From contig NZ_CP077769.1 in NCBI RefSeq assembly GCF_020386615.1, positions 4,278,001 through 4,342,000 on the forward strand: a stretch of DNA of 64,000 bases. Reading direction: 5' to 3'. Below are positions 34-15,721 of this stretch, one piece after another (position 1 is the first letter of the stretch; the number at the start of each line of letters is the position of its first letter). Below the pieces are notes generated by a model that saw nothing but the letters and a program-made list of their open reading frames with translations, was not told where the DNA came from and ran no database searches. Both the position numbers and the translations under genes were made by a program. This DNA is from Chitinophaga pendula (lineage in GTDB: Bacteria; Bacteroidota; Bacteroidia; Chitinophagales; Chitinophagaceae).

Positions 34-59
34 GGAGAGCCTGCAGGTGCAGGCTCTCC
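34..59 (-). terminator. Intrinsic terminator ending the RiPP operon
   Basis: A perfect inverted repeat (GGAGAGCCTGC at 34-44 pairing with GCAGGCTCTCC at 49-59) lies 28 bases beyond the precursor stop codon. Read on the minus strand the hairpin is followed by CTTTCTTC, a moderately U-rich tail. It probably ends transcription of the whole minus-strand cluster. The weak U-tract leaves room for some read-through. Confidence 0.7.
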
Positions 60-87
60 GGAAAGTAAAATCTCGGTATCGCTGTTC

Positions 88-264
88 TTAGAACAGGATA
101 TCGTCATTGCTTCCTACAGAGTCGAAGGTGTTGCAACCGCGAGGACGTCTGTTGAAGCTGGAGCAGAGGGATTCCAGGACTTCCAGGGATACTTCTTCTA
201 CTGCTTTACCGAGGTTTTTGGGTTCAGCCAGTTGTTTGCTTTTTGGATTTTCATTTTTTTGCAT
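88..264 (-). CDS. RiPP precursor peptide (58 aa)
   Basis: This small gene is translated from the minus strand as 58 residues, starting MQKNENPKSKQLAEPKNLGK. The N-terminal part (about residues 1-32) is rich in Lys and Glu and looks like a leader. The C-terminal part holds Cys34, Arg39, Arg40, Pro41, Arg42, Gly43 and Cys44, then a Ser/Asp-rich tail ending in Ile-Leu-Phe. It is the last gene before the operon terminator and follows the exporter gene by 46 bp. A peptide arginase, four JmjC proteins, a radical SAM/SPASM enzyme, two proteases and a glycosyltransferase lie in the same operon. The role as substrate of these enzymes is inferred from position, size and leader/core composition. There is no Gly-Gly motif, so leader removal probably uses one of the clustered proteases. 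Confidence 0.75.
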   Translation of the reverse strand: MQKNENPKSKQLAEPKNLGKAVEEVSLEVLESLCSSFNRRPRGCNTFDSVGSNDDILF

Positions 265-310
265 AAAATCAAATTTTAAAAAGTGAATAAAAAATAAAAA
301 GAGGTGATAA

Positions 311-2053
311 TCAGATCTTAACGGTCGTGAGGTCGAGCTGGCTTTCGAACAGCTGGTAAAAATGGCCTTTCTTTTGAATCAGTTCTGCCATGGTACCATG
401 TTCTATTATTCTACCGGCATCTATGCAGACAATCTCGTTTGCATATTTCAGGGCACTAAGCCTATGTGAGATGATAATAATGGTTTTGAATGCGGGATTT
501 CCGAAGAGGTGAGCATATATGGATTCTTCGCTTTTGGAGTCGATCTCTGATGTCGCTTCATCTATGATCAGCCATTCTGTGTTGCGCAATAGTGTTCTGC
601 CTAGGGACAGTTTCTGTTTTTGTCCTCCTGATAGTTTTACGCCACCATCGCCGATCTTACGTAAAGCCCTTTTATGGTAGTCATTATTATCGGTAAAGAT
701 CCCTGATAGTTGGGCAGCCTCTACCAGCTCATTGTCGCCGGCATTTAATTTTCCGTAGCGTATATTTTCCAGGATGGTATCGTTGAACAGGAAGTATCCC
801 TGGCTATTTACGGTCAGGTGATGCATCCAATCTTCCATATCGATTTCCTGCAGGTTTCTGCCGTTGACGAGTATTTGCCCTTTGTGCGGGATATTAAATT
901 TGCATAGCAAGTCTACGATGGTAGATTTTCCGCCGCCGCTGGCGCCTACGATTGCATAATGCCGGCCGGTATGAAACGTAAAATCCAGGTTGTTGATCAC
1001 TTGTTTGTCCTGATGCAGGAAGCTGACATTTTCCAGTTCGATCTTTTTGATGGGGCTATCGAGTTGCTGGTATGTACTGTCTTTTACTTCGATGGGATGA
1101 TCCAGCAATTCGAAGATGCGTGATATTGATACGGATGTGTTTATCAGTTCTACATACAGTGATATGATATTCTGGAAGGGGTCGTATAGTTTGTTGGCGT
1201 ATTGCAGGAATGCTACCAGCGTACCTATTGTCATCAGGCCGGCGATGACCTGCCAGCCCCCCAGCCCTAATGTAACGAGCGGTACGAGGGAGAGCAGGAA
1301 GATGCTGATCCCTTTTGAGACCGACAGCATGAGACCACCATCGATATTGAGTTTGACCAATTGCTTAAACCGGTTTTTGATCAGGTTTCCCTCATGATCA
1401 TATGCATTGAACAATTTTATAAACCGGACGTTGGTTATTCTTTCTGTGAGATGGCCGAGTATTCCTGCTTCTTCTGCTTTCACGTTTTCCGCCAATTTTT
1501 TGATGCGGGGGTTGAATCGTTTTATGCTGAAGAACAGGAGGGGGTATAGCAGGCAGATAGCCAGAAAAAGTTTTGTATCCAGCACGCACATCACCACGAT
1601 GAGCCCTATGATGGTGATAGCATTGTTGATGAAGTGAATGAGTACGCCTGTAAGTGATTTACGAACGTTATTCACTTCGTTATTCATCCTGTGGATCACG
1701 TCGCCGAGGCTTCTTTCTTTAAAGAAGTGCATGGGCAAGCGGATGATATGATTGAATAATTTCAGGGACAACGTGTTAAGGACCTGATTACTGATCCAGT
1801 TATACAGGTATTCTGACGCGATGCCCATTAATATCCGAGCGATATATGTGGCAAATATGAGGGATAGTATTTCGACCAGGAGTGAGACTTTTTTCTCTAT
1901 CAATACCTGATCGATTATGACCTTCAGGTAGTAGGGAGAAGCCAGTGCCGCGGCATTTCCGAGCAGCATTAAAAGCAGCAGCAGGGCTTCATACTTAATA
2001 TATGGCCGGAGGAAGGACAGCAGCCGCTTCCAGATCATTGTCTTTGGATTCAT
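311..2053 (-). CDS. ABC exporter, fused membrane and ATPase domains
   Basis: This 580-residue protein has an N-terminal six-helix ABC exporter membrane domain (about residues 15-310) and a C-terminal ATPase. The Walker A motif is GASGGGKST, the signature is KLSGGQKQKLSLG, and the Walker B region is WLIIDEATSEID, followed by an ISHR switch motif. This is the normal layout of a homodimeric exporter half. It has no N-terminal C39 peptidase domain, so it would not itself cut a leader peptide. It sits directly upstream of the precursor gene in the same operon and is most simply the exporter of the mature or nearly mature peptide. Substrate assignment is inference. Confidence 0.9.
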   Translation of the reverse strand: MNPKTMIWKRLLSFLRPYIKYEALLLLLMLLGNAAALASPYYLKVIIDQVLIEKKVSLLVEILSLIFATYIARILMGIASEYLYNWISNQVLNTLSLKLFNHIIRLPMHFFKERSLGDVIHRMNNEVNNVRKSLTGVLIHFINNAITIIGLIVVMCVLDTKLFLAICLLYPLLFFSIKRFNPRIKKLAENVKAEEAGILGHLTERITNVRFIKLFNAYDHEGNLIKNRFKQLVKLNIDGGLMLSVSKGISIFLLSLVPLVTLGLGGWQVIAGLMTIGTLVAFLQYANKLYDPFQNIISLYVELINTSVSISRIFELLDHPIEVKDSTYQQLDSPIKKIELENVSFLHQDKQVINNLDFTFHTGRHYAIVGASGGGKSTIVDLLCKFNIPHKGQILVNGRNLQEIDMEDWMHHLTVNSQGYFLFNDTILENIRYGKLNAGDNELVEAAQLSGIFTDNNDYHKRALRKIGDGGVKLSGGQKQKLSLGRTLLRNTEWLIIDEATSEIDSKSEESIYAHLFGNPAFKTIIIISHRLSALKYANEIVCIDAGRIIEHGTMAELIQKKGHFYQLFESQLDLTTVKI

Positions 2054-2084
2054 CTATGCTATTTGGGAGAGGGCAGCCGTGGTA

Positions 2085-2900
2085 TTATTGCTGCTTATCC
2101 AGGTAAATACGGATGATGTCTTCCATTTTCTGTGCCGCATTTGTATATCCAACGCTATTGAAATATTGCAGCACATTAAGATAGTTGTCTTTATTGATAA
2201 AGTTCTCTGACAGGGCCAGCCCAGATTCGAGCACGTATGCCCAATGCCAGATGTTACCCGGGCAGTATATGAGTTCTCCTGGTTCCTGGATACATACAAC
2301 AGGTGTAGTTTTGTAGAACAGCGGAAATCTGTCCGGATCTGCTGTTAACGGGTCTACTTCGCCATTATATAGCAGGTGTTCCTGTTCACGGGGAAAGAAG
2401 AGCCATAGTTTTCGTCCTTCGTACAATGCGTTCCAGAAGCTGGTACCCCATATGTCTTTATGCAAGGTACTTCTTGCGCCGCGAGGTCCGAAGTAGAGGC
2501 AAGAAAGTGTGATCTTCCGCGGTATATTCAAGGCTTTGTAATAGGCTTTGTACCAGCAACTAAAAGCCGGGTCTACCTGGTATTCCTCTTCCATACCGGT
2601 GCCGATGTGTAATGTTGATTTAGCGTAGTAAGGGTTTTCATCTGTCGTTTGGCGGATGTATTCGGCATATGTTGCTATTGTTGTGTGGATATATGTTGTG
2701 TCTTCGCCGATCTTATGATCTGCTGATATTTTTTGATGGCCGAATGTGTCGACCAGGTATTGGATGTTCCATTTGGGGTACGAAGCCCAATCATTCATCA
2801 TACCATTGTATAGTACCGGCAAATGTTCATCTATCAGCTGACCGGGAGTTGCGGCACGCATTATCTCCTTCGTCTGGCGAAAGGCTGAAAGGATATTCAT
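2085..2900 (-). CDS. JmjC/cupin_8 Fe(II)/2-oxoglutarate oxygenase
   Basis: A 271-residue protein of the cupin_8/JmjC type. The iron triad is visible: His147 and Asp149 in the STLHKDIWG segment and a distal His219 in GNIWHWAY. Family members hydroxylate protein or peptide side chains using Fe(II), oxygen and 2-oxoglutarate. It differs in sequence from the three JmjC proteins at 12227-15191, so it was recruited separately. It lies 31 bp from the exporter and 9 bp from the small carrier-like gene in one operon. The likely substrate is the cluster's precursor peptide. Residue and position specificity cannot be read from sequence. Confidence 0.8.
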   Translation of the reverse strand: MNILSAFRQTKEIMRAATPGQLIDEHLPVLYNGMMNDWASYPKWNIQYLVDTFGHQKISADHKIGEDTTYIHTTIATYAEYIRQTTDENPYYAKSTLHIGTGMEEEYQVDPAFSCWYKAYYKALNIPRKITLSCLYFGPRGARSTLHKDIWGTSFWNALYEGRKLWLFFPREQEHLLYNGEVDPLTADPDRFPLFYKTTPVVCIQEPGELIYCPGNIWHWAYVLESGLALSENFINKDNYLNVLQYFNSVGYTNAAQKMEDIIRIYLDKQQ

Positions 2901-2909
2901 AAGTTATCT

Positions 2910-3176
2910 TTAGATACCTGGCGATATGCACCTGTTGATGACGGTGGCCATATGCCGGATGCTACTGAGAAAGAAGTAGTCGACTTCGTTGTCTGGAATG
3001 TTTATCTCAAACTTCTCTTCGATAAAGGCGACCCATTTAATAGCGGCGTCATCATCTCTGGAGAAAAGGTAGAGCAGGTTAAGTGTTATCAATTCGTCGG
3101 AAAAATGCTGGGGTATATGGATACGCTCCTTCAGCGCAGCAAGCAGGTAGCTTTCCAGCGTCTGTTGGGAAATCAT
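2910..3176 (-). CDS. Acyl-carrier-like small protein lacking the phosphopantetheine serine
   Basis: This 88-residue protein carries the helix III and IV pattern of acyl and peptidyl carrier proteins: WVAFIEEKFEINIPDNEV matches the usual EEEFxIxIPDE segment. Counting back from Phe56 of that motif, the phosphopantetheine attachment site should fall at residue 42, but the local sequence is SRDDDAAI, with Asp at that place. If it is a carrier-protein relative it cannot carry a phosphopantetheine arm. It may instead be a docking or leader-binding protein for the modifying enzymes. The family call is from motif similarity only. It is spaced 9 and 17 bp from its operon neighbours. Confidence 0.5.
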   Translation of the reverse strand: MISQQTLESYLLAALKERIHIPQHFSDELITLNLLYLFSRDDDAAIKWVAFIEEKFEINIPDNEVDYFFLSSIRHMATVINRCISPGI

Positions 3177-3193
3177 GACGATATTTTTTAAGG

Positions 3194-5530
3194 CTAATTT
3201 TCTCTGAGTACGCGGGCAGGGTTGATGGTCTTCAACCGGATTGCATAAAAAAGGATGATTAATAAGATGAGTCCGGCCATTCCCAACAGGGGTATTGCGA
3301 ATGACAGCGGGTTCATTTGTATCCTGTAGGGGAATTTCTCCAGCCAGTTGTGTAACAGCAGGTATGATACCGGTATAGCTACTACTGCCGCTACAGCTAT
3401 CAGCTTAAGGAAATCCACGAATATGAGATTTACTATTTGTTGTTGTGTACTTCCGAATATTCTCCGGATGCTCATTTCTCTCATTCTTTTGATGATAGAG
3501 AAGTTTATCAGTCCGAAGAATCCGGATAAGGCGATCAATATGCATACGATGCTGAATATAAAGGATCGTTTGCCCAGGTTGGCCTCATCTTTATAGATAG
3601 TATTAAGTTGGTCTTCTACCCAGAAGTAGTTTTCGGTTTTTTTCGACGGATCTTTCCGACCCAGTGCTTCCATGAAGGCGATTGCATCGGTTTCTCTGCC
3701 GGGTATGGGTTGAATAAACAGGTATTCTGCTTCGGGTGGGAAGTCTGCTATGATGAGTGGTTCTATGGGATTGTAGAGGGAGCTGAAGTTAAAATCTTCA
3801 ACGATACCTGTAACGCGGCCTTTTTCGCCGAAGACATCAATCATTTTATTGATGATTGCATCTTCGCCCCCCATTAGTTTTGCGGCTCTCCGATTGATCA
3901 CGACTGCGAGGTCTGCGCTGAATTCGTCTCCGGGGTCTTTGGTTATCCGTTTTACTTTAAATGTTTTAACGAAGTCTTTGTCGGTATATAACACGGCAAA
4001 CCTGACGCTATCATTCGGGGTCTTACCCGGCCAGTTGACGTCTCCGGTAACCGGGCAGCCGGTCACGAGGTTAGAGCTGGAGAAGGTACTGCTTGCGAGG
4101 AAGGACTTGGATTTGAGTTCTTCTTTAATCAGTGGCATCTTCTGTATTTCTTCTTCGGTCAGTTTTCTGCCCAGTATATGTTGTTTATCATATCCCAGGT
4201 CTTTATGCAGTAGGTATTGTACCTGGTTGTTGGTGGTAAAGGCGATATATATCAGTATGACAGATATAAAGAACTGTATTGTAAAGAGGATCTTTGTTAC
4301 GCCGATGCCGCCTATCCTGGTACCTTTATTGTTTTTGAGTACGCTTATAGGGTCGAAGGAGGTCAGTATCAGGGCTGGGTATATGCTGGCAACCAGGCCT
4401 GTTATGCCAAAGATTACGGCGATGAACAACCAGAATTCCCATGAGGTGAGTGGGAACCGGAGTGTTTCTGCCAGGTAGGTATTGATAGTAGGCAGACAGA
4501 AGAAGACGATGAGCAGGCCTAGTACGATAGCAATGAACACGGTGAGATAAGCTTCCCCGATCAATTGCCTGATGAGAGACATTCTTCCTGCGCCCATCAT
4601 TCTTTTTACACTTAATTCTTTTGTGCGTTTGAAAGAGCTGGCGATGTTCAGGTTCATAAAATTGATACATGCCATTGCCAGCAGGAAGATAGCTGCTATG
4701 GTAAAGAGGCGTACATATAAGATCCTGCCGCCGCTTACGGCACCGTTCTCAAAATTCGAGTAGAGGTGAATATCTTCGAAAGGTTGCAAATAGATACCGG
4801 CTTTTGAGAGGCCGGTTACTTTTTGATTTATTTTGGCCCTTATGTCTGCGATGTTGCTGTTAGGATTGAGTTTAAGATATGCTTCATAGTTATAGCTACC
4901 TATGTGTTCGTTGGTGTCTTTAGGCAGTGGGATAAAGAAGTCACTACGGAAGCTGGACTGTTCGGGGAAAGCTTCAAACACTCCTTTTACTTGCCATTCC
5001 CGGGTTTTATCGGTGGAGATCGTCAGTACGCCATTATCCATTCTTGTGCGCCATTCGGGGCCATATAACCTGTTGGCGACATCAGAGGATATGACAATTG
5101 CTGCCGGATCATTCAGGGCACCTTCGGGACTTCCTGTGAGGAATGGTCTGGGGAAGACTTTAAACAGGTCCGTGCTAGCATATCTTCCATTTGACCGTGT
5201 TTGTTTTTTGTCCATTTCGATGTCCACTTCGTCCATCGTTTTGGTAGTAACAATATTTTCGACACCGGGTATTCCCTGACTGATAGCGCGTATCAGCGGT
5301 AATGAGGTAGCGCGGGCTGATCTTATCTCGTTATTGACCGGGTAGTTTGTTACTACCTGAAACACCTGTTGATCTTTGAGGAAGCGGTTATATCCTTTCT
5401 CCCGGAATATCCACAGCATCAGTATGATGAACGATGCTATGCCGATGGAAAATCCGGAAATGTTTATGATGAATGTAAGTTTGTTCCTGCTGAAGATCCT
5501 AGAGGTTTTCTTTAAGATTGAAGTACTCAT
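3194..5530 (-). CDS. FtsX/MacB-type ABC transporter permease
   Basis: A 778-residue permease typical of Bacteroidota. It has an N-terminal membrane helix with a periplasmic MacB_PCD domain, three helices around residues 280-400, a second periplasmic region, and a last three-helix FtsX domain in the C-terminal 130 residues ending INPARVLREN. Such proteins use a separate LolD/MacB-type ATPase, but none is encoded in this cluster, so the ATPase must come from elsewhere or the protein works without one. It lies between the protease and carrier-like genes. It may serve export or self-protection; this is inference. Confidence 0.85.
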   Translation of the reverse strand: MSTSILKKTSRIFSRNKLTFIINISGFSIGIASFIILMLWIFREKGYNRFLKDQQVFQVVTNYPVNNEIRSARATSLPLIRAISQGIPGVENIVTTKTMDEVDIEMDKKQTRSNGRYASTDLFKVFPRPFLTGSPEGALNDPAAIVISSDVANRLYGPEWRTRMDNGVLTISTDKTREWQVKGVFEAFPEQSSFRSDFFIPLPKDTNEHIGSYNYEAYLKLNPNSNIADIRAKINQKVTGLSKAGIYLQPFEDIHLYSNFENGAVSGGRILYVRLFTIAAIFLLAMACINFMNLNIASSFKRTKELSVKRMMGAGRMSLIRQLIGEAYLTVFIAIVLGLLIVFFCLPTINTYLAETLRFPLTSWEFWLFIAVIFGITGLVASIYPALILTSFDPISVLKNNKGTRIGGIGVTKILFTIQFFISVILIYIAFTTNNQVQYLLHKDLGYDKQHILGRKLTEEEIQKMPLIKEELKSKSFLASSTFSSSNLVTGCPVTGDVNWPGKTPNDSVRFAVLYTDKDFVKTFKVKRITKDPGDEFSADLAVVINRRAAKLMGGEDAIINKMIDVFGEKGRVTGIVEDFNFSSLYNPIEPLIIADFPPEAEYLFIQPIPGRETDAIAFMEALGRKDPSKKTENYFWVEDQLNTIYKDEANLGKRSFIFSIVCILIALSGFFGLINFSIIKRMREMSIRRIFGSTQQQIVNLIFVDFLKLIAVAAVVAIPVSYLLLHNWLEKFPYRIQMNPLSFAIPLLGMAGLILLIILFYAIRLKTINPARVLREN

Positions 5531-5540: not shown

Positions 5541-6698
5541 TTAAATGGATAGTGTTTCCAAAATCACAATCTGCCCGTTAAATCTACTTCCGAATAAAAG
5601 TACTGTTTTTCTAATAACATTGGCTATGTATTCGTCAAAAACTAGGAAATTCCCATTATGTTCGATGAACTGGCGGATGAGGGTGTATCCGAAATATACA
5701 TTCAACAGGTGTTTGTTGTCGAAGAAGTTACCTATAAGCAACGTATTGACCCGATTGAACATTTTTCCGGAAACGAGCGGTTTCAGATCCGGTATACCGG
5801 GATATTGGATCTCCGGGGTATTCCCCTGCAGAAAGTAGTTCATGTTGAACAGTAGTTGATCTGCCAATACAGCCGGATCTTTTACCGGTGTGTGATCGAG
5901 GGCATATGAGAGGCATTTCCACGCTTTATTTATTCCTGTTACGGGTATATGGGTGGTGGTTTCCTCCGGCTGATATTCTATCAGGTAATGAAGATTTAAA
6001 GTATTCGTTCCCCCCTGCCTGATATGATCATGTATATTGATGGTGTTATCTGCCGTTTCATTGATCAGCTTGTTGCACAAGATACCGGAGAATGCGGCGG
6101 TTGCGTAGCTGGTACCTCCCCGGAGGATATATTTATCGTTTTCATGTAGCAGGCGTTGGTGGATGCCTTTTGCGAGGATGTTAATGTATCCATCACCGAG
6201 ATAGCTGTATTGGTTAATATCGCTTATCAAGCCGGCGCCTACACCATATACGAAAGGGAAGGCGGCGGGGTAGCATTTTTTCTCGCAGTTGAAGTGAGCG
6301 GCTGCCACCAGTATTTTCCCCTTCTGATGGCAGTACCGACAGCATTCGAATAGTTCCTGTGAATAGGTGTCTGTGCTTAGGATACCCAGGCTGATATTGA
6401 TTACGTTAACGACCGGTAGTTCTGCGCAAAAGCGGAGTGCTTTGCACAGGAGGGGGACGTTGATCGTTTTGAGCGGTACCATTCTTACGGAGAGGATACT
6501 TGCGGAAGGGCATACCTGGAGTATAATGGAGGCTATATTCGTACCATGGAGGCGTTTGGTTGCCATATCCGCGATGTTATCCACATTTGTGTTGGTGGAT
6601 TCGTAGATATTGATCTCCTGGACGGGAGTGGTTTGAGCTGCAAACCGATCCATCAGCAATCCTTCGTCAATAATGGCGACTACCGGTTGTCTGCTCAT
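5541..6698 (-). CDS. Subtilisin-like (S8) serine protease, no propeptide
   Basis: A 385-residue S8-family protein. The catalytic triad is in the expected order: Asp11 (VAIIDEG), His51 (LHGTNIAS) and Ser197 (GGTSYATAAF). The substrate-binding segment NISLG is also present. The catalytic Asp comes only 11 residues from the start, so there is neither a signal peptide nor a prodomain and the enzyme is probably cytoplasmic. Residues after about 215 form an unassigned C-terminal extension. Within this operon it is a good candidate for removing the precursor leader or trimming the modified peptide. It is encoded 16 bp from the radical SAM gene. Confidence 0.82.
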   Translation of the reverse strand: MSRQPVVAIIDEGLLMDRFAAQTTPVQEINIYESTNTNVDNIADMATKRLHGTNIASIILQVCPSASILSVRMVPLKTINVPLLCKALRFCAELPVVNVINISLGILSTDTYSQELFECCRYCHQKGKILVAAAHFNCEKKCYPAAFPFVYGVGAGLISDINQYSYLGDGYINILAKGIHQRLLHENDKYILRGGTSYATAAFSGILCNKLINETADNTINIHDHIRQGGTNTLNLHYLIEYQPEETTTHIPVTGINKAWKCLSYALDHTPVKDPAVLADQLLFNMNYFLQGNTPEIQYPGIPDLKPLVSGKMFNRVNTLLIGNFFDNKHLLNVYFGYTLIRQFIEHNGNFLVFDEYIANVIRKTVLLFGSRFNGQIVILETLSI

Positions 6699-6713: not shown

Positions 6714-8171
6714 TTATTTATTGGCATGTGTTTGAAATTCGGCTGCCTGGGGAGCGGCGATGGCTATGTTGTCGGCATCTTCCTGCATGAGGTTGTACAT
6801 TTTTTCGAAGTAGGCCGGTAGTTGGGATTTCCAGGCGGTACAGGGAAAGTTCCCTTCTTCTACGGCGTGTAGTGAGTCGTATGCGCAGGAAAGACCTTCG
6901 CATACGGGATTGAATTTACAATTGTAGCAAGTGGGATGTATGTTGGTGCGGGAGTAGTCGAGATATTTTTTAAAGTCGGCCGGATTCCAGGCTTCGAATA
7001 CTTTTTTACCGGAGGAGATGTTGGTATCGTGAATGGTTTCCCAGCATTTGTGGATGTTTCCTTCCGGATCGAATGTAAAGGAGTATGGCGATACATAGGT
7101 CGCGCAGTCGCTTTGTTTTGTGGGGAATTTCCATTTTAGTTTGGGACGTTGCTTACCGGTATGCGCCGGCCAGCTTTGGAAGCGGTCTATCATGAGTTGA
7201 CTGAATTCGTTTTCAGTATGGAAAAACTCTTCCTGTGTCATGAAGGCCATGTTCTCGGTGTCGGCACCTTTATAGGAGCGCAGCCAGGCCAATTTGATGG
7301 ATATATTTTTATATCGCTGGGGCCATATTCCGTATGTCTGTAAGTCGTCGAGTAGGCGAGGTAGGGTAGCTGCTACTTTTTTATCGGTATTGACCCGGAT
7401 GTTGGCGCTGACGCCCGGGGGCATGATAGAGAGGTTCTCCAGTATTTTCTCGTAGTTCTTACCATTTTGATTTTTCAGAGGCCGGTAGGCTTCGTGTACT
7501 TCTTTGGCACCATCGATCGTAATCTGTACATCTGTGACACGATTTTCTACCAGGAAATCCCAGTTTTCTTTGTCGAGTAATATTCCATTGGTGATGATAG
7601 ACGCTTCATATGGAATGTTGTATTGCTCACACAGTGGGATAAAGTGTTCGGAGAGCAGGCGGATGGCTTCTTTATTGATCATGGGTTCGCCGCCATACCA
7701 TATAATGGAGAGGCCGCCCCATTTTTTGACTGGTGCGCGCAGGATCATATCTTCTATGTAGTTGGCGATCCCTTCTACTACTTCTTTTTTTCGCAAGCTT
7801 TTGTTGGGTTTTATCAGCTCGAAGCAATATGGGCATCCCATATTGCAGGTGATGGTGGTACCTATTGTAAGGCCGATATGGGGGTTGTTCGTATATTTTC
7901 TCAGCTGGCTTTTGTGATAGTCTTCCTGGTAGGCCGCTATTTCATCGAGTTGGCTGTCGACGAAAAAGCCTAGTTCTGACAGGCCTGCCAGTTCTTCTTC
8001 CAGGGAGGGGTAGTCGGTGAGTTGAAAGGCTGGCAGCTCTTTCAGTGCGGTGACGGTCTGTCCCAGGTTATTTTCCAGCACTTGTAATCCACCGGTCAGG
8101 ATATTATACAGGAGGAATTCGCCGGTACTTTTAATGGGTATTAACTCATTATAATAGCTAGACTTTATCAT
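6714..8171 (-). CDS. Radical SAM/SPASM peptide maturase
   Basis: A 485-residue radical SAM enzyme. The cluster motif is Cys109-x3-Cys113-x2-Cys116 within TITCNMGCPYCF. The C-terminal third holds a Cys-rich SPASM-type domain, with Cys residues in HKCWETIH, CYNCKFNPVCEGLSC and FPCTAW, likely binding auxiliary Fe-S clusters. The roughly 90-residue N-terminal region could be a precursor-binding (RRE-like) domain but shows no motif I can confirm. SPASM enzymes form C-C, thioether or ether cross-links or epimerise residues in RiPPs. Which one applies here cannot be decided. It is part of the minus-strand operon with the precursor at 88-264. Confidence 0.85.
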   Translation of the reverse strand: MIKSSYYNELIPIKSTGEFLLYNILTGGLQVLENNLGQTVTALKELPAFQLTDYPSLEEELAGLSELGFFVDSQLDEIAAYQEDYHKSQLRKYTNNPHIGLTIGTTITCNMGCPYCFELIKPNKSLRKKEVVEGIANYIEDMILRAPVKKWGGLSIIWYGGEPMINKEAIRLLSEHFIPLCEQYNIPYEASIITNGILLDKENWDFLVENRVTDVQITIDGAKEVHEAYRPLKNQNGKNYEKILENLSIMPPGVSANIRVNTDKKVAATLPRLLDDLQTYGIWPQRYKNISIKLAWLRSYKGADTENMAFMTQEEFFHTENEFSQLMIDRFQSWPAHTGKQRPKLKWKFPTKQSDCATYVSPYSFTFDPEGNIHKCWETIHDTNISSGKKVFEAWNPADFKKYLDYSRTNIHPTCYNCKFNPVCEGLSCAYDSLHAVEEGNFPCTAWKSQLPAYFEKMYNLMQEDADNIAIAAPQAAEFQTHANK

Positions 8172-8227: not shown

Positions 8228-10183
8228 TTATAGCCGGATCAACTGTAGTGCATGTTTCAGCAATTTGTCCTCATAGGGAGCGAGGTCTCTGGCATGTGTT
8301 TTAGCGACCCAGATATCCGGTTCTATACCTTTTCCTTCGGTATAGATGGCCGGATCGAATATGAATTGCCTGAAGTTGGTATGTAGTTGCAATGTTAATC
8401 CGGAGGGCAGGCGGAATATAGTAGCGCTGGCGACTGCCCCCATGGTAGGGGTATCTCCCAATACGAAGGTGCCAGGTCTTTTTTTCATGCCCAGTATAAA
8501 TATTTCGGAGGCACAGGCGGTATTTTTATCTGTCAGGATAATCACTTTAGCAGCCCGGCATCTGAATTCTTTTCTTGCCGGTGAGATCAGGATGGATTCT
8601 TCGAACCAGGGGTAGTGTCTTCTGCCGAGGCTATATTCCTGGTTGGTGAACAGGGAAAGTGTTTTCAATACGTCTGCGCTGTAGCCACCGCCATTTCCCC
8701 GCAGGTCGATGATCATTCCTTTGATATCCTGTTGTGCGAAGAAGATATTCAGGAGTTTGTAGTAGGTTTCTCCTTTCCAGCTGGCGATGCGGAAGACCAG
8801 GGTATTATCCGGCAGTAGTCGTATTTCGGGTGCAGGCAGGAAGTTCTTTGTCATCCGGACAGGTGTGGTATATGGGATATGAAATGTCCGTAGGGAACGG
8901 TTGCTATCTGCCAGTATGCTGATGTTGAGTATTTCGGTTTCTTTCCTGAACAGGAGTTGATTAGGATCTCCACTGGTGGATACGGGTTTATCATCTATGG
9001 CTATTACTTTGGCTCCCAATGGGATTGAATCCCGATAGCGATCGTTCAGGATGGCTGCGACCACTACCTCTTCTCCGATAGTTTTGAGGCGCAGGGGGCC
9101 ATTTTTGGGCCGGGCTACCGGTGCATCGGCAGCAGGGGTGGATGGTAGTATAATACCCAGATGCGGGTCGGGATACAGGCGTTTAAAATTTGCCTGCAGG
9201 TCGGCCAGCAGGGAGGCATAAGGACGGTTAGTGTTACTGAATATCTTATTGAAAGTAGCGATGGCTTCTTTTTTGTTGATCCCTCTCTGTTGATAGAAGG
9301 GATATAGTTCTGCGAATTTCTTCATCAAGGCTGCCAGTAATTTTCTTTCTTCCGCCTTTGTATCGGCGGGTATGAAGGTGACGTATCCTGACAGGTATCC
9401 ATTCTCCCGTCCAAAGTCTTCGAAGGTGAGTGGCTTTGTATTCTCTTTTTCGGAAGTTTCCGGCTGTGCGTAGACGAACCGGGAATAGTCGTCGAACATC
9501 CTGGTGTAGGTTTCCTGCGGGTGTCCGGTGAGGCTATCGATCCACGCGAATACGTTCCGGGTGGGTGTATTATTGATCTCTCCGATAGTAAGGTCGCTGA
9601 TGATAAGATCTGATCTTTCTGTGGGATGAGCCGGTTGGTATAGTATCGTCAGGCTATTAAAGGTAATATTGTCGTCACTGAACTCATGGCCGGTACTATG
9701 ATCCCAGGTACTGATGAAGGAGGACAATGGCAACTGGAATCCATCCTGGTCGATGGTGATGTCCTTGAAGTGCCAGGTGGAATCATTTCCCATTAGAACG
9801 AGTAGCAGCTTTTTAACATTTCTGGTATAGCAGGAGATATTGGCCTTTGCTTTATCGTAGTTCAGTGTGGGTTTATTACTGGGGAGCAATTGCCGGAGGA
9901 AAAACGTATCCGTTTGCCAATCTGCGGCAGCGAGTATTGCCGTTGTGGCGGATGTTTTTGTACCTTTTTCATTTACGATGATGCCCTGACAATCTTTATG
10001 ATCAGGAAAACATACGGGGCTTTGGACATAGGCGCCGGTAGTCGTTGTTAGATCCCATTTGGTAGTGAACCCGGAAGTATAGGATATAGCTTTCCATTGT
10101 GCGTGTGCGGTAGTGTAGCACAGACACAGGAGGAGGCACAGATAATTATGCCAGGGGCTTACTGACGAAGCACTATTGTTCAT
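8228..10183 (-). CDS. Secreted S41-like protease with Cys at the nucleophile position
   Basis: A 651-residue protein with a signal peptide (hydrophobic stretch ending AHAQ near residue 29). A central PDZ-like region (about 355-430) precedes an S41 core with the family segment DLRGNGGGY (493-501) and GDTPTMGAVAS (about 572-582). Where S41 proteases have the nucleophilic Ser of the SASE-type motif, this protein has TACASEIF with Cys557. The Lys of the tail-specific FGKG motif is also absent, as it is in tricorn-like S41 members. It may be a Cys-nucleophile variant or an inactive binding protein. Being exported, it could act on the peptide after secretion. Confidence 0.75.
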   Translation of the reverse strand: MNNSASSVSPWHNYLCLLLCLCYTTAHAQWKAISYTSGFTTKWDLTTTTGAYVQSPVCFPDHKDCQGIIVNEKGTKTSATTAILAAADWQTDTFFLRQLLPSNKPTLNYDKAKANISCYTRNVKKLLLVLMGNDSTWHFKDITIDQDGFQLPLSSFISTWDHSTGHEFSDDNITFNSLTILYQPAHPTERSDLIISDLTIGEINNTPTRNVFAWIDSLTGHPQETYTRMFDDYSRFVYAQPETSEKENTKPLTFEDFGRENGYLSGYVTFIPADTKAEERKLLAALMKKFAELYPFYQQRGINKKEAIATFNKIFSNTNRPYASLLADLQANFKRLYPDPHLGIILPSTPAADAPVARPKNGPLRLKTIGEEVVVAAILNDRYRDSIPLGAKVIAIDDKPVSTSGDPNQLLFRKETEILNISILADSNRSLRTFHIPYTTPVRMTKNFLPAPEIRLLPDNTLVFRIASWKGETYYKLLNIFFAQQDIKGMIIDLRGNGGGYSADVLKTLSLFTNQEYSLGRRHYPWFEESILISPARKEFRCRAAKVIILTDKNTACASEIFILGMKKRPGTFVLGDTPTMGAVASATIFRLPSGLTLQLHTNFRQFIFDPAIYTEGKGIEPDIWVAKTHARDLAPYEDKLLKHALQLIRL

Positions 10184-10212: not shown

Positions 10213-11271
10213 CTATTTGAGTTCAATTATTTCGCAGAAGTTTTTCATTACTATTCCCTTTCCGAAGCCTTCTTCATTTGCTCTGCAGTTGCCGCTTTTT
10301 CGCCGGTTCTTCATCATCTGGTAGTTACCGATAATGGATTTTCGGAGCAGGATATCGTTCCAGTCTTCGGAGCGGATCACTTCCCGGTATATTTCTTCGC
10401 CATGAACCAGTTGCGGAACATTGTGGGAGTGGTCTTCGAGGAATGTCCGTGTCTCCTCTCCTACTTCTTCTATGTGGATATGATTTCCGATGCTGTTCCA
10501 ATGGCCTTTTCGCCAGCCACCTTCCTGAATAGACGGGAAATGATCTTCTGCTTTGATGAGGGTACCTGCTTCGATCTTTCCATCTTTGTACAGGAACAAT
10601 ACGCTACTGGTGCCAGGGTCTATTTTCCTGACGAATGCCCTTTGAAGGTGGTGGTAGTCGTAGCTGTTCTCAAACCGTCTGATATCGTCGTGGCTGACAT
10701 AGTTATTAAAAAAGGTGTTGGGCAGGTATTTCAGATGTACGCCGGACATTTTCAGGCGCAAGCTGAGGTCGATATCTTCATATCCATATCCTTTGAAACT
10801 TTCGTCGAATCCTCCTACAGTATGAAAGTCGGCTGTTCTCAGGCAGATGCGTCCTATGTTGTCGCGATCTGCTCCGTTCAGGTCGGCGATCAGTGCCAGT
10901 GGGTCATTGACGGGTAATTCGTTGCTGACATATCCGAGTATGTTGTCTCCGACGTGGTAGTCGGCGTTGACATTGCAGATGATGTTGCCGGTGGCCAGTC
11001 TGAAGGCAATGTTTCTGGAATGGGCATGTGAAAAGTAGCGAGGTAGTGGGTCGATGATCCTGTAAAAGCTCAATATGCCCTCTTCTATGTACTGCAGGCA
11101 GTTTTCTTTCACCCAGGATTCCAGGCCATCTGAGGAGTTATAGTCCAGCAGGATGATCTCTGTATTGGGAAATCTTCTGCTGCAGGCGATGTTGCCAGGC
11201 AGTGTTTCTTTCAGTGTGAACAGTCTGTTCATCGACACGGTGCAAAGTGAAATTCTTGCAGGCGGTGTCAT
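10213..11271 (-). CDS. GT2-family glycosyltransferase
   Basis: A 352-residue GT-A fold glycosyltransferase. The N-terminus has the family-2 pattern (ISLCTVSMNR, then IILLDYNSSDG). The DxD-like metal motif is NVNADYH, and the acceptor-side motif GGFDESFKGYGYEDIDLSLR resembles the galactosyltransferase C-terminal (Glyco_transf_7C) segment. It has no membrane helix and should be cytoplasmic. It is 15 bp from the arginase gene in the same operon, which suggests that the peptide product is glycosylated. The sugar and acceptor are unknown. Confidence 0.8.
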   Translation of the reverse strand: MTPPARISLCTVSMNRLFTLKETLPGNIACSRRFPNTEIILLDYNSSDGLESWVKENCLQYIEEGILSFYRIIDPLPRYFSHAHSRNIAFRLATGNIICNVNADYHVGDNILGYVSNELPVNDPLALIADLNGADRDNIGRICLRTADFHTVGGFDESFKGYGYEDIDLSLRLKMSGVHLKYLPNTFFNNYVSHDDIRRFENSYDYHHLQRAFVRKIDPGTSSVLFLYKDGKIEAGTLIKAEDHFPSIQEGGWRKGHWNSIGNHIHIEEVGEETRTFLEDHSHNVPQLVHGEEIYREVIRSEDWNDILLRKSIIGNYQMMKNRRKSGNCRANEEGFGKGIVMKNFCEIIELK

Positions 11272-11285: not shown

Positions 11286-12215
11286 TTATTGGGAATCGGT
11301 GGACAGTGGGACGTTGTTAACGTGTGTACAGTCTTCGATATCGTATATTTTGCTAAGTGCGTTTATCAGTTGTGTTTCTATGAATTCGCATTGATCATCG
11401 GGGGTATATCCACTTTTACGGGACCGGCAGATGGTGATCACCGGGGGATTGGTGATTTTGGCCTTCAGGAACCCGATGGTACGATCGATCCGTTGCTGAA
11501 TGGTATCTGCGCTTACTTTCAGCGGAGATTCCCGGGGGTCTGCGATCCTGTTGAAGTAATAGTAGTATCGATCGTTCTCACATACAGCATCTACTCTTCC
11601 GAAGTCAAAAAAGCGGATGCGATGATAAGGCGTCTGGTGGAAATGTTTGTATTCTTCTTCGGTGATTTCAATACGAAGTTCTTTTTGCAAGGGGTTCTGG
11701 ATGCAGGAGAAGTAGTCGAGATCGATATCCAGTACGACGGTACCAAACTTTTTGAGTTCATTGATATGTTGTTTATAGAAGCGGTAGCGGCGGGCGTCCT
11801 GGCTTTTGCTACCTGAGGCATCATCGTATTTATCTAGCAATCCTGCCTGTCCGCCGGCGAGGAAGGTACCCGCATTGTTTTGGGAGCGGATGTACATTTC
11901 ATGGGCTTTCCTGTTGGTTTTGCCATGGCGATGTTTGATCCAGTAGACATCGTCGAATAAGCCTTCATAGACAGCGGGCAGGATAAAAGTAGCGATGGTC
12001 AGTTCTTTGTAGGTAAAGTCTTTGATCTGAGACAGGTCGCCATTCAGCTTGGGGGCTGGTATGTTGAGATATGGAATTCCCATATCGGAATGTTCGTCGA
12101 TATGTATCAATATGTTGTTGCTTGGCTTGATACGTCCTTGTGCCACTGCATATTTCCAGATGAGGTATGCTTCGTGATGTTCTTCTACTATAAAAATCGT
12201 TGATTTCTTTCTCAT
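11286..12215 (-). CDS. UPF0489-family peptide arginase (Arg to ornithine)
   Basis: A 309-residue protein with the arginase-like metal-binding motifs of the UPF0489 family: HIDEHSDM (His38, Asp40, His42, Asp44) and DIDLDYF (Asp163, Asp165, Asp167). Established knowledge: UPF0489 members in cyanobacterial RiPP clusters (OspR type) are manganese-dependent arginases that turn peptide arginines into ornithines. The precursor here has three arginines close together (39, 40, 42), which makes a peptide-arginase role likely. Position inside the operon, between the glycosyltransferase and the JmjC genes, agrees. Substrate and activity remain inferred. Confidence 0.75.
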   Translation of the reverse strand: MRKKSTIFIVEEHHEAYLIWKYAVAQGRIKPSNNILIHIDEHSDMGIPYLNIPAPKLNGDLSQIKDFTYKELTIATFILPAVYEGLFDDVYWIKHRHGKTNRKAHEMYIRSQNNAGTFLAGGQAGLLDKYDDASGSKSQDARRYRFYKQHINELKKFGTVVLDIDLDYFSCIQNPLQKELRIEITEEEYKHFHQTPYHRIRFFDFGRVDAVCENDRYYYYFNRIADPRESPLKVSADTIQQRIDRTIGFLKAKITNPPVITICRSRKSGYTPDDQCEFIETQLINALSKIYDIEDCTHVNNVPLSTDSQ

Positions 12216-12226: not shown

Positions 12227-13186
12227 TCAGTTTGTTTGTGATTGGCTAGGTGCGGCAAACAGTGTTTTTTGCTGGTCTGTCAGTGGTGTTGGCCTGGTTT
12301 GTTTTATATTTCTGTTGAGTATATCTATGGAAAGGTTGTCGAGGAGTAGTTTTCGGATACTATCTATCAGCTCATTTTCGGGTATTCCCTTGTGAATGAG
12401 GGAGAGGACGCTACGGCGTAGCAGGCTTTCGCTGGCCGCCAGGCTAACTACGTAATCGGATAATATCTTGGCCAGGGTGGTGTTATAGACGCCGGCGGTG
12501 ATGTGGGCGGACATATCCGCGGAGGTTGCTGCTTCGTGTACGAAGCCCCTGGGCATATACAAGGTATCGCCGGCTTCCAGTTCTACGTCATAAAGCAGTT
12601 CGAGGCTATCGACATCAAACGGTACGGCGTTGTGGATACCCAGCGGGAGGATATAAGGGTTGCTGTATACTTTCCAGTGTTTTGCGCCGGCGATCTGCAG
12701 GACAAAGACATCATGCGAGTCATAATGGACATCGAATCCACAGGCATCCGGAGGTGTGATGTATACATTAGCGTTAGAGGTACAGTGGAAAGTATCGTTG
12801 ATGGAAAGCAGTAAGCGGGATATAGCCGGCCACAGCTCTTTGATCTGTTCCAATATAAAAGTGGCTTTTTCTTCTTTAAACAAGCGATTTACCTCTTTTG
12901 TAAGCACTTTAGACTTTACTTCAACATTCCTCATCTTTTCTACCTGTATATATTGTTGTACGGGGACTGGTTTTCCCTCTTTCACCATTCTCATATTTGC
13001 CCTGTTCAGTATATCGTCCATATACAAGATCTTATCCACATCCTGTAGTTGTAGCAGCGAGGAAAAGAAGCTGCTATTTTCCCGTTTTATTACGAGGGGT
13101 TTCTTTTCAAAGTATTCGCTGAAAAAAGTGGTGCTATCCAGTGGATCGATGAGGTGATCGAAGTGGATCTCTGAAGGGCTGTGCAT
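12227..13186 (-). CDS. JmjC-type oxygenase paralogue 1
   Basis: A 319-residue protein of the ribosomal-oxygenase-like (JmjC_2) family. The N-terminal YFEKKPLVIKR segment is typical. The iron ligands are intact: His154 and Asp156 in DVHYDSHD and His217 in PRGFVHEA. Family members hydroxylate Arg or His side chains of proteins using 2-oxoglutarate. It is the most downstream of three tandem paralogues, separated from the next by 38 bp and from the arginase gene by 11 bp. It probably hydroxylates the precursor peptide. The hydroxylated residue is not predictable from sequence. Confidence 0.82.
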   Translation of the reverse strand: MHSPSEIHFDHLIDPLDSTTFFSEYFEKKPLVIKRENSSFFSSLLQLQDVDKILYMDDILNRANMRMVKEGKPVPVQQYIQVEKMRNVEVKSKVLTKEVNRLFKEEKATFILEQIKELWPAISRLLLSINDTFHCTSNANVYITPPDACGFDVHYDSHDVFVLQIAGAKHWKVYSNPYILPLGIHNAVPFDVDSLELLYDVELEAGDTLYMPRGFVHEAATSADMSAHITAGVYNTTLAKILSDYVVSLAASESLLRRSVLSLIHKGIPENELIDSIRKLLLDNLSIDILNRNIKQTRPTPLTDQQKTLFAAPSQSQTN

Positions 13187-13224
13187 TTTTTTATATTGAG
13201 GAGGTGAATGGCGATGTATCGGTA

Positions 13225-14196
13225 TCAGTGCTGTGCGGGTATGTGATCACTGATCAGTGCTGCCAGGGAAGGTATGGTCATAGCTGACGGTTTTGCGGTA
13301 TTATGCCGGTGCTGGTAAAAAAAGGCCAGCAGTTCTTCTTCCGATATCTTTTGCAGCAATTGTTGTTTCAGACTGTTGATTTTATCCTCTTTATATTGTT
13401 GAGGTATATCCATGCCGGTGATATATGATCTTCTGAACAACGGGTCCTGGTATGCGAGATGGGTGATATAGTCTGCAAACCGTTTGATCCAGCTGGTATT
13501 TAGTATTCCTAATGTAACATGGCAGGACAGCACATCGGTCGTGATCACCTCGTGTACGTATCCTCTTGGGAGGTACAGCAGGTCGCCGGGTTCGAGGCAT
13601 ACGTCGTGTAATAGCGCGAGCCCGGAGAAATCTACTTGTTTCCGGTTTTGTGGTTCGAATGGCAGGTAGACGGCACTTTCGAATATTTTCCAATGTTTGT
13701 TGCCGGCGATCTGAATAATAAAGAGGTCGTGTTCATCGTAATGCCATTGGAAACATTGTGCGTTGGCGGGTGTTACGAATAGATTGACACCTGAGTTGCA
13801 GTTGAATTCCTGTTCCATACTTACCACCAGTTCGTTTAATGTTGCATGATAGCTGGCGGCGTTGTGTATGATCATGGTTGCTTTATCGTGTGTGAAGGTA
13901 TTGAACAGTTTCTCCCGGTTTACGCCGGTCTGCATGCTTACTTTTTCGGTATGCCAGCTATTGGTATAATCTTCCGGAACTATTTTTTTCCCTGCGTGGC
14001 TCATTGTCAGTTTCAGGTCGGCATGCCGGGTACCTGCATCAATGATCTGATCTGTTGCTGCGAGGGTCAGCAGGTTATCGAAATAATGTTTATTATTTCT
14101 TTTTATGATCAGTGGTTTTTTCTCAAAGTATTCGCTTATAAACTCCCCTTTTTTCAGGGGAGCTATCAGCTGATGAAACCCGAATGTGGTATTCAT
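13225..14196 (-). CDS. JmjC-type oxygenase paralogue 2
   Basis: A 323-residue paralogue of its neighbour, with the same YFEKKPLIIKR start. The iron ligands are intact: His152 and Asp154 in QWHYDEHD, and His215 in PRGYVHEV. The C-terminal winged-helix-like part is also present, so the length matches a full JmjC_2 protein. It lies in tandem between an active-looking copy and a degenerate copy. The pair of intact paralogues may modify different residues of the same peptide. Activity is inferred from conserved ligands. Confidence 0.82.
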   Translation of the reverse strand: MNTTFGFHQLIAPLKKGEFISEYFEKKPLIIKRNNKHYFDNLLTLAATDQIIDAGTRHADLKLTMSHAGKKIVPEDYTNSWHTEKVSMQTGVNREKLFNTFTHDKATMIIHNAASYHATLNELVVSMEQEFNCNSGVNLFVTPANAQCFQWHYDEHDLFIIQIAGNKHWKIFESAVYLPFEPQNRKQVDFSGLALLHDVCLEPGDLLYLPRGYVHEVITTDVLSCHVTLGILNTSWIKRFADYITHLAYQDPLFRRSYITGMDIPQQYKEDKINSLKQQLLQKISEEELLAFFYQHRHNTAKPSAMTIPSLAALISDHIPAQH

Positions 14197-14210
14197 ATAG
14201 GGAGCTATTT

Positions 14211-15191
14211 TCAGTCGTTGGCGTGAAGGCTGGCGAGTGCAGTCAGCATCGCTTTTAGTGTTTGCGGATCACAGGAAGAGGGCCTGTTATGGGGGGGCCG
14301 TCGTTTTCCGGATAAGTTATCGAATGTGGTCGTATTAAATTGCGTTTCAATCTTTTCTCCCAGCAGGTTCGCTGCTTTTTTCAAGCTGTTATTATCTTCC
14401 AGGTCGTTGAGGAAGGCTGTTTCCCGTAATGTACCGGCGGTGTTGCCGATATCTTTCAGGATATCGAGTATTAGCCGCAGATAAGTGGGGAAGGTAAATT
14501 TAACGGCGGCGAATACGGCTGTTTGTTCCAGGGGGAATGATTCCCAGATGAATCCTCTGGGTATGTACAATGTATCGCCAGGTTGGGTGATACATTGGTG
14601 TATTAGTGATTGTTGGGACAGGTCAAACGGTTGATTGGCCTGGGATGGTAGTGGCAAGGAGATGGGCCCCTGATATATTTTCCATTTCCGGCTACCGGTT
14701 ATCTGCAAGATGAACATGTCTGCAGTTTCATACCTAGGATATGTGGGGACGCCTGTTGGCGGTGTAAAGTACAGCTGGCTTTCGCAGGAGCAGTTCAGTT
14801 CTTCGGTGAGTGCTGCTGTGAGGTCATCCAGCATGGGCAGTTGCCCCTGTATGTTTTTGAAGGCTATATTCACTTTTCCTTCTGAGAAAAGCCGGAATAC
14901 GGTTTCTATGTCGATACCATAATTAAGTCGGACATTACCAGGCAGGGCTCTTATATGCATGTATCTTGCTGCTGCAAGCGTTGTGGTATTATCTTCCAAG
15001 ACGACCTGATAGGGCACGGGATCTACTGCATTTGCGAGCCATGCTGCGACTATATCGAGTGAGGAGCATTGATCAAAGGAATGAAGATCGTTTCTTTTGA
15101 TATGAAGTATATTTTGCTCAAAATAGTCCTGGAGGAAGGACGTTTTTGCGCATGGGGATATGATCCAGGAAAAGTCATTTTTCATAGACAA
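14211..15191 (-). CDS. JmjC-like paralogue 3, metal ligands lost (probable pseudoenzyme)
   Basis: A 326-residue paralogue of the two following JmjC proteins (YFEQNILHIKR start, GDTLYIPRGF segment). All three expected iron ligands are replaced: the His-x-Asp motif reads Arg153-Tyr-Glu155 in YPRYETAD, and the distal His is Trp216 in PRGFIWES. The reading frame is intact and the fold-defining residues remain, so the gene is kept under selection but is unlikely to bind iron. It may act as a substrate-binding or scaffold partner of the two active copies. It is separated from paralogue 2 by 14 bp. Confidence 0.8.
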   Translation of the reverse strand: MSMKNDFSWIISPCAKTSFLQDYFEQNILHIKRNDLHSFDQCSSLDIVAAWLANAVDPVPYQVVLEDNTTTLAAARYMHIRALPGNVRLNYGIDIETVFRLFSEGKVNIAFKNIQGQLPMLDDLTAALTEELNCSCESQLYFTPPTGVPTYPRYETADMFILQITGSRKWKIYQGPISLPLPSQANQPFDLSQQSLIHQCITQPGDTLYIPRGFIWESFPLEQTAVFAAVKFTFPTYLRLILDILKDIGNTAGTLRETAFLNDLEDNNSLKKAANLLGEKIETQFNTTTFDNLSGKRRPPHNRPSSCDPQTLKAMLTALASLHAND

Positions 15192-15217
15192 GTATGCGTT
15201 TGGTGGAATTAAGGCGA

Positions 15218-15721
15218 TCAGACGGCTTTGAGGTGTTGTCTTGCGATCACTGCCGTGACTACTTTTCCGAGCAGGTTGACGGTGACCATGACGTTTTTCT
15301 GTCTTTGTTTTATGACTTCGCAGCCTAGTCCTGAGAGTGGGCCTTCGCGGATCATCAGTTTCTGACCTTTCATCAACATCTCGTTTTCGACTTTGATATG
15401 CCGGCCTTGTGTGGTGATCAGTTTTAGTCTTTCGATGGTGTCGTGAGACAGTGTGGCCATTTCATTTCCGAACCTGACATACTTCGCATAGCCATCGATA
15501 CCGGTGCTTTTATAGAAGGTGGCGGGCATATCCACGTATACAAAAACGTATGAAGGGAACATGGGTTTTTCTCTTATTACGATTACGTTTTTGCCGGTAC
15601 CTGTTACTCTGATCATAGGCAGGTAGTGTTGGATATTACTATCGGATAGTTGCCTGGCTACCTTTTGTTCATGGTGGGCTTTGGTATACATCACATACCA
15701 ACCTGCTACTAACTGTGGCAT
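15218..15721 (-). CDS. NusG/UpxY-like transcription antiterminator
   Basis: A 167-residue NusG paralogue. The NGN domain is at residues 6-110 (GWYVMYTKAHHEQKVARQL, MFPSYVFVYVDM) and a KOW-like domain is at about 120-160 (MIREGPLSGLGCEVI). In Bacteroidota, UpxY-type paralogues head long polysaccharide or natural-product operons and let RNA polymerase read through the whole operon. This gene is the first of a roughly 15.7-kb minus-strand operon and is preceded by about 400 bp without genes. It is most likely the cluster-specific elongation factor. Confidence 0.85.
   Translation of the reverse strand: MPQLVAGWYVMYTKAHHEQKVARQLSDSNIQHYLPMIRVTGTGKNVIVIREKPMFPSYVFVYVDMPATFYKSTGIDGYAKYVRFGNEMATLSHDTIERLKLITTQGRHIKVENEMLMKGQKLMIREGPLSGLGCEVIKQRQKNVMVTVNLLGKVVTAVIARQHLKAV

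Follow-up and report, generated by a model that had tools for sequence, protein, structure and literature searches.

A likely ohk-type member of the FlmA / DD(I/V)LF peptide family in the genome of Chitinophaga pendula

A 64,000-nucleotide stretch of the Chitinophaga pendula genome (positions 4278001-4342000; the genome is one contig of 7.66 Mb; hereafter, the window) carries an operon which, in our judgment, is very probably an ohk-type member of the FlmA / DD(I/V)LF family of ribosomally synthesized and post-translationally modified peptides (RiPPs), with proposed steps of ornithine formation, oxidation, cysteine bond formation, proteolysis, and export. The arginines of its precursor peptide would probably be turned to ornithine (Orn) and then oxidized.

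We favor this reading because the three curated NCBIfam models of the family (FlmA_fam_RIPP, pept_arginase FlmR/OhkR, and rSAM_FlmE_OhkG) are all exceeded in the window: the precursor scores 62.5 bits (cut-off 30), the arginase 419 (cut-off 350), and the radical S-adenosylmethionine (SAM) enzyme 671.9 (cut-off 500). In addition, the activity of FlmR and OhkR has been published. According to the available part of that source (Pfeiffer et al. 2025, PMC12703449), which describes 30 arginases with 57 DD(I/V)LF precursors, both enzymes form Orn in such precursors, in E. coli and in vitro, and the conversion in OhkA1 takes place at R43 and R45, the RPR arginines of its KRPRGC block. Alignment shows R40 and R42 of the window precursor to be homologous to these two residues. 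The window arginase carries all three UPF0489 motifs, namely EEHHEA, DEHSD, and LDIDLDYF (family pattern EEH(N/H)EA, DxHxD, LDIDLDYF), and the precursor ends in NDDILF, with a KELVKP-like leader motif (here KQLAEP) and a core containing Cys and Arg. The reading is further favored because, in related loci, the arginase tracks core Arg and an intact Cup8 (the Cupin_8/JmjC protein at 2085-2900 and its counterparts) tracks core Arg or Lys, while BipG, a JmjC enzyme of biphenomycin biosynthesis, hydroxylates Orn and not Arg (available text of PMC12707348).

All named genes lie on the minus strand with 9-56 bases between them, and Pfam and NCBIfam together identify three JmjC_2 proteins, Cup8, UPF0489, radical SAM/SPASM, GT2, S41, S8, FtsX, ABC, UpxY, and the FlmA-family precursor. 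From the head of the operon to its end, the features are as follows.

15218..15721, minus strand: UpxY-family transcription antiterminator, operon head (NF033644, 103.4 bits, cut-off 100)
14211..15191, minus strand: JmjC_2 pseudo-oxygenase (Pfam 1e-16; R/E/W replacing H/D/H)
13225..14196, minus strand: JmjC_2 oxygenase, iron triad intact (Pfam 4.1e-26)
12227..13186, minus strand: JmjC_2 oxygenase, iron triad intact (Pfam 1.9e-25)
11286..12215, minus strand: UPF0489 peptide arginase of the FlmR/OhkR family (NF052474)
10213..11271, minus strand: GT2-like glycosyltransferase (Pfam Glyco_tranf_2_2, 7.9e-10)
8228..10183, minus strand: S41 C-terminal-processing-type protease (Pfam 5.1e-21; N-terminus signal-like by eye)
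6714..8171, minus strand: FlmE/OhkG-family radical SAM/SPASM enzyme with CNMGCPYC (NF052473)
5541..6698, minus strand: S8 subtilisin-like protease with D/H/S motifs (Pfam 1.6e-08)
3194..5530, minus strand: MacB/FtsX-type permease (Pfam; NF038008 DarB, 129.2 bits, below the cut-off of 700)
2910..3176, minus strand: 88-aa carrier-protein-like protein, a putative pseudo-carrier (AlphaFold2, Foldseek, alignment; Asp at the phosphopantetheine Ser position)
2085..2900, minus strand: Cup8, Cupin_8/JmjC oxygenase, iron triad HxD..H intact (Pfam 3.4e-15)
311..2053, minus strand: MsbA-like ABC exporter (Pfam ABC_membrane and ABC_tran; TIGR02203, 360.5 bits, below the cut-off of 602)
88..264, minus strand: FlmA-family precursor, 58 aa, core from C34: CSSFNRRPRGCNTFDSVGSNDDILF (NF052472)
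139..150, minus strand: codons of R39, R40, P41, and R42

An earlier note on this DNA had proposed a tightly spaced minus-strand RiPP operon with Arg-to-Orn chemistry and a 58-aa precursor with three clustered arginines. The genes it named are all present, the arginines are R39, R40, and R42 of an RRPR block, and the chemistry is strongly supported by the curated models and the published FlmR/OhkR activity (PMC12703449, available text). Its gene list stands as far as it goes, with the 88-aa carrier-like protein, the FtsX permease, and the antiterminator left out; of its four JmjC-type proteins, three have an intact iron site and the fourth (14211-15191) is dead. Nor is the operon bounded by the window: same-strand genes conserved in two relatives run on for at least 3.7 kb.

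Arginase and oxygenases in related loci

We compared 24 distinct loci (L numbers below), comprising a first set of 21 and three fetched later, after removal of duplicates. Scanning genome contigs with an arginase profile turned up 79 loci, of which 11 were kept for having both an FlmE-like radical SAM gene and an FlmA-like precursor; the remaining 68, in which no FlmA-like precursor and at most distant radical SAM matches were seen, were set aside. Searches starting from the radical SAM enzyme yielded 9/79 genomes of the same genus, 1/395 of a phylum sample, 2/390 in the order of O. koreensis, 5/145 in the genus of P. cryoconitis, 1/299 in the family of F. meridianipacifica, and 4/395 in its order. 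The radical SAM model by itself found 20 of the 24 loci, 15 of these with the arginase. Since 11 loci entered through the arginase, its frequency is biased upward, and the radical SAM gene is present throughout by design, as loci were selected by this gene together with a precursor. The check proposed in the earlier note, whether a short precursor always accompanies the related gene set, comes out positive for all 20 loci found through the radical SAM model, each having a short precursor with an acidic-hydrophobic tail nearby (in G889, a weak match, E 0.015). Six loci, which we call ohk-type, combine JmjC_2 genes, a carrier-like protein without the attachment Ser, and an acyltransferase-like protein, and the same six have the RPRGC core. 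These loci form one clade (support 100/99); therefore, their shared traits count as one evolutionary event, not six.

Core Arg is found in 18/19 loci with the arginase versus 1/5 without it (one-sided Fisher p 0.0023, without correction for kinship). Within the first 21 loci, the figures were 17/18 versus 1/3, and the three later loci fitted. At least two changes on the radical SAM tree are required to account for the loci without the arginase. L163 has no arginase and, judged by eye, has Lys where its close relatives have Arg; L164 has five precursors, none with core Arg or Lys; and L165 has both Arg and the arginase. Cup8 matches occur in 17/19 arginase loci and 2/5 other loci. A strict tie between Cup8 and the arginase, as seen in the first 21 loci (16/18 versus 0/3), was broken by the matches in L163 and L164, and the sequences point to a better rule, in which an intact Cup8 would accompany core Arg or Lys. 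Indeed, the iron ligands are intact in 19/20 distinct copies (17 of the first set plus L163 and L165), and an intact Cup8 always occurs with core Arg or Lys (18/18 loci, i.e., 17 arginase loci and L163). The only dead copy, in L164, is short (220 aa), with D/E/H replacing H/D/H so that two of three ligands are lost, and it lies in a locus whose cores have neither residue. Because L163 codes Lys and drops the arginase, and Cup8 is dead where Arg and Lys are both missing, the arginase appears to supply an amine. We regard Cup8 as a candidate ornithine hydroxylase. The Chryseobacterium-type locus L164 (L164:7160-7822, minus strand) holds five precursors of near-identical length and no arginase, and with its Cup8 lacking two iron ligands it makes an apparent amine-free branch of the FlmA family.

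The iron triad of JmjC_2 oxygenases (PF08007) is HxD..H. In the window, the proteins at 12227-13186 and 13225-14196 have this triad, and that at 14211-15191 belongs to the Pfam family with R, E, and W in its place. Leaving aside a 75-aa fragment in L133, there are 18 distinct JmjC_2 copies, of which 12 retain H, D, and H; the other six are dead, one per ohk-type locus, with both His lost in all six and Asp also in five. A single branch sets the dead copies apart from the others (support 84/96; present in 83% of bootstrap trees); some branches in this tree are long. Across the 24 loci, JmjC_2 genes occur in 7, a separate 2-oxoglutarate (2OG)-type oxygenase in 12, and the acyltransferase-like protein in 6, and the latter two never occur together in one locus. 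Maribacter (L007 and L134) has the 2OG enzyme and, further along, two intact JmjC_2 genes. A 2025 survey of RiPP recognition elements (RREs) describes, in its available part, JmjC_2 proteins with RRE-like folds, the closest bacterial homologues lying in RiPP-like contexts (PMC12710340).

Carrier-like protein, accessory genes, and surroundings

The 88-aa protein, found by iterated search in 16/24 loci, is predicted to adopt a helical carrier fold (AlphaFold2 predicted local distance difference test score [pLDDT] 84.3). Its Foldseek matches are mostly acyl carrier proteins (best E 0.015, best TM score 0.70 to an acyl carrier protein), none at 0.001 or better, and its profile reaches a best E of 0.006 against the PDB. 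In carrier proteins, the phosphopantetheine attachment Ser sits in D-S-L. This site is Ser in 10/10 non-ohk loci with the gene and D or E in 6/6 ohk-type loci, and the window protein has Asp in place of the phosphopantetheine Ser. A profile of the 10 Ser forms matches PDB carrier proteins (best E 6e-5, the first match being named uncharacterised), and the Ser and Ser-less forms match each other at 95.9%; when 9 of the 10 Ser forms were scanned with Pfam, 7 gave a PP-binding match, each one short of the cut-off. Because all ohk-type loci share the Ser-less carrier and the dead JmjC_2 protein, these losses predate this strain. In a Pedobacter FlmA-type locus, a stand-alone nonribosomal peptide synthetase condensation-domain protein (L129:17904-19364, plus strand) lies downstream of a Ser-bearing carrier, with a 25% relative in L096 (1377-2777, minus strand) and a distant one in L009.

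The acyltransferase-like protein (L002:12534-13607) lies outside the window. Lysophospholipid-type acyltransferases have a catalytic H-x4-D/E pair, of which this protein and its counterparts retain the His, the acid being replaced by Y or N in 6/6. A PDB sequence search gave no match; its kinship came from profile comparison, in which it matches Lip_A_acyltrans relatives at 91.1% (hhalign), eight controls reaching at most 0.4%. A further gene, coding for 285 aa (e.g., L095:8598-9455), adjoins the radical SAM or S8 gene in 9/24 loci, including the other 5/6 ohk-type loci; its place in the window is the gap between 6698 and 6714. Its product has no Pfam match and, at an AlphaFold2 pLDDT of 87.7, no Foldseek/PDB match at E 0.001 or better. 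An eIF4E-like identity, suggested by weak top Foldseek matches, was not trusted.

The window gene order recurs in L095 and L093 at 42-83% identity, which places the gene set beyond chance; L093 has no counterpart of 12227-13186, and both have the extra 285-aa gene. Past the window edge, the same strand continues for 3.7 kb with genes for a 122-aa protein, the acyltransferase-like protein, LicD, and GT4 (locus L002), an order that L095 and L093 share, and then with a 294-aa CarboxypepD_reg-like gene (to 4.7 kb) that has kin in L004, L006, and L133. By sequence, the motifs of the arginase, the radical SAM enzyme, the S8 protease, Cup8, and two JmjC_2 proteins are intact. The radical SAM enzyme is not of the ranthipeptide PapB type (NF047865, 93.7 bits, cut-off 340); no signal peptide was seen by eye in the S8 protease, and Pfam found no peptidase domain in the ABC exporter. 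A defense-system reading was dropped, as a scan of five operon proteins gave matches for the radical SAM enzyme only, and these were distant ones to viperin models.

Left of the window, tail-to-tail with the operon end, a 560-aa protein with no NCBIfam match (L002:7641-9323, plus strand) has relatives in five FlmA-type loci (L043, L092, L130, L163, and L164) and so seems part of FlmA-type clusters. OMP_b-brl_3 TonB-receptor-like genes lie near carrier or oxygenase genes by Pfam (L129:15521-17929, L164:4448-6844, and L165:14120-16480); that of L129 has relatives in 11 other loci, and these genes are possible uptake or self-protection partners. A ~600-aa family (L129:13304-15118, L038:18572-20392, L164:2671-4473, and L096:3487-5187) has no Pfam match in the two of four members scanned. 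The first 300 residues of its L129 member hold a SPASM-like Cys cluster and no CxxxCxxC, and the family is perhaps a radical-SAM-derived partner.

Proposed course, C-terminal tail, and alternatives

The most likely course is Orn formation at R40 and R42, followed by hydroxylation, a Cys-based radical SAM step, proteolysis, and export. By analogy with OhkR acting on the homologous arginines, the arginase would hydrolyze R40 and R42, and perhaps R39, to Orn. Judging from BipG and the gene distribution, Cup8 would next hydroxylate Orn, and the two intact JmjC_2 enzymes would hydroxylate Orn or other RRPRGC residues. The radical SAM/SPASM enzyme would, as related enzymes suggest, form a Cys-based bond in the core, with the dead JmjC_2 and the Ser-less carrier as putative non-catalytic partner proteins. 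The S8 protease would then cleave in the cytosol, and the peptide would leave through the ABC exporter, with possible trimming by the S41 protease on the outside. As the weakest step, GT2, LicD, and GT4 may decorate the peptide. Hydroxylation, cross-linking, and glycosylation of the product are inferences.

Several observations weigh against this course. L008 has the arginase and no Cup8, and the only precursor found there lacks Arg in its core (L008:3401-3559; this FlmA-like cluster comes from a Latescibacteria metagenome-assembled genome in which further precursors may be missed). L098, with one core Arg, has no arginase. G439 (L094) has the arginase and core Arg with no Cup8 match, and L097, L098, and L130 each have one core Lys or Arg, likewise with no Cup8 match. 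GT2, present in 4/6 ohk-type loci, is missing from ohk and Chryseotalea, so that glycosylation does not characterize the branch. Finally, the 285-aa gene was not found in this genome by a search that matched 3/3 other genomes, and with this gene missing the pathway could be altered or impaired. Taken further, this absence would fit an operon in decay, one that has lost the 285-aa gene, iron ligands, and the carrier Ser and no longer makes its ancestral product. We consider decay very unlikely, however, since the reading frames are intact, as are the motifs of two JmjC_2 proteins, Cup8, the arginase, the radical SAM enzyme, and the S8 protease, and since the dead JmjC_2 and Ser-less carrier are common to 6/6 ohk-type loci, ohk included. 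A possible alternative, although still on the unlikely side, is that the oxygenases do not act on peptide Orn, the JmjC_2 proteins targeting core Pro, Phe, or Asp or, in the manner of NO66 and MINA, the ribosome or a different host protein. Among solved structures, the JmjC_2 profile (dead copies included) best matches these two histidyl hydroxylases, and JmjC_2 genes track a precursor type (RPRGC) that differs by more than Arg; yet they sit in the cluster in 6/6 ohk-type loci (one clade and thus one event), and the sole dead Cup8 sits in a locus without core Arg or Lys. Distinctly speculative, and one we would not expect to hold, is the idea that FlmA-type clusters are peptide-carrier hybrids. 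In flm and Pedobacter, a carrier charged on the Ser of SES would deliver an acyl or aminoacyl group to an Orn or Lys amine; in the ohk branch, the carrier and one JmjC protein would have become permanent non-catalytic subunits presenting the precursor to the active oxygenases, and RRPRGC would thereby become a hydroxylated Orn cluster via a pseudoenzyme-assisted complex.

The conserved tail of the precursor raises a separate choice. A profile search with the precursor gave 91 proteins, the window's own included; 90 of them have D or E at position -4, 79 end in ILF, and each has at least two Cys. Two invariant core Cys were ruled out by L092, whose core has one. The acidic-hydrophobic tail is retained in 5/5 arginase-less loci and in both loci without an S8 match. 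Since it persists without the arginase, the tail most likely has its role with a different maturase or in processing. Tsp-type S41 proteases recognize nonpolar C-termini, the tails finish in hydrophobic residues, and an S41 gene is present in 19/21 first loci and all three later ones, all of which would suit a tag for the S41 protease instead of a maturase-binding follower. We find this rather doubtful, because both S41-less loci, L128 and L012, keep acidic-hydrophobic although altered tails (EELIF and DSLLF), which speaks against S41 as the sole tail reader, on two loci only. According to the available part of PMC12703449, replacing the tail by Ala left FlmR unaffected and lowered OhkR efficiency. 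The radical SAM enzyme is the best remaining candidate tail reader, although its constancy is built into the sampling.

Relation to known systems

The earlier note knew of no described pathway with this gene set. That view does not hold, since a 2025 paper described the family, the ohk locus (GT2 and LicD excepted) has this gene set, and biphenomycin joins arginase, JmjC, and radical SAM enzymes (available texts of the papers cited here). The main text of PMC12703449, as available, does not mention JmjC, cupin, oxygenase, or glycosyltransferase, leaves the role of the conserved tail open, and gives no final product, none having been published for the family; judging by the titles listed in searches of open-access literature, nothing beyond the cited papers describes the full gene set.

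In quinohemoprotein amine dehydrogenase (Qhp) maturation, the likeness lies in the S8 protease, whose best NCBIfam match is QhpE, although below its cut-off (79.8 versus 165 bits), and the substrate here is a small peptide rather than an amine dehydrogenase subunit. Qhp maturation combines a radical SAM enzyme, an S8 protease, and an exporter. Landornamide, a product of lanthipeptide chemistry, shares with the window a UPF0489 peptide arginase making Orn (OspR). Its precursor, unlike that of the window, is of the NHLP type (PMC12703449, available text). In biphenomycin/pbs, a single RiPP pathway likewise unites a UPF0489 arginase, a JmjC- or cupin-type Orn hydroxylase, and a radical SAM enzyme (PMC12707348, PMC12257519, available parts); for biphenomycin, these are a JmjC gamma-Orn hydroxylase needing Orn and not Arg and a B12-dependent radical SAM enzyme (PMC12707348). 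Its own features are a multinuclear nonheme iron-dependent oxidative enzyme (MNIO), the B12-dependent radical SAM enzyme, a Phe-Arg-Phe core, and a metalloprotease (PMC12707348, PMC12257519). The scanned operon proteins have no such Pfam domain, and the window core has no Phe-Arg-Phe.

Within the family, flm (Flagellimonas meridianipacifica) shares with the window FlmA precursors, arginase, radical SAM enzyme, S41, S8, Cup8, ABC exporter, and antiterminator. It differs in having no JmjC_2 or acyltransferase-like match; in their stead it has an oxygenase of the 2OG type and a Ser-bearing carrier-like protein. The closest likeness is to ohk (Ohtaekwangia koreensis, L004), whose precursor has RPRGC with a DDVLF tail, whose arginase and radical SAM enzyme are 50% and 57% identical to those of the window, and which likewise has three JmjC_2 proteins including a dead one, S41, S8, FtsX, Cup8, ABC, the Ser-less carrier-like protein, and the acyltransferase-like protein. 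In the stretch fetched, ohk differs in that it has two precursors and the 285-aa gene, arranges its genes differently, and gave no match for GT2 or LicD. Altogether, the kind of pathway is already published, and the part worth following is the ohk-type variant with its retained dead subunits and added decoration branch: two catalytic-looking parts are conserved dead forms whose omission might make a reconstitution fail, and, for a family with an unpublished product, the comparison offers testable answers on the tail, the arginase, and the dead partners.

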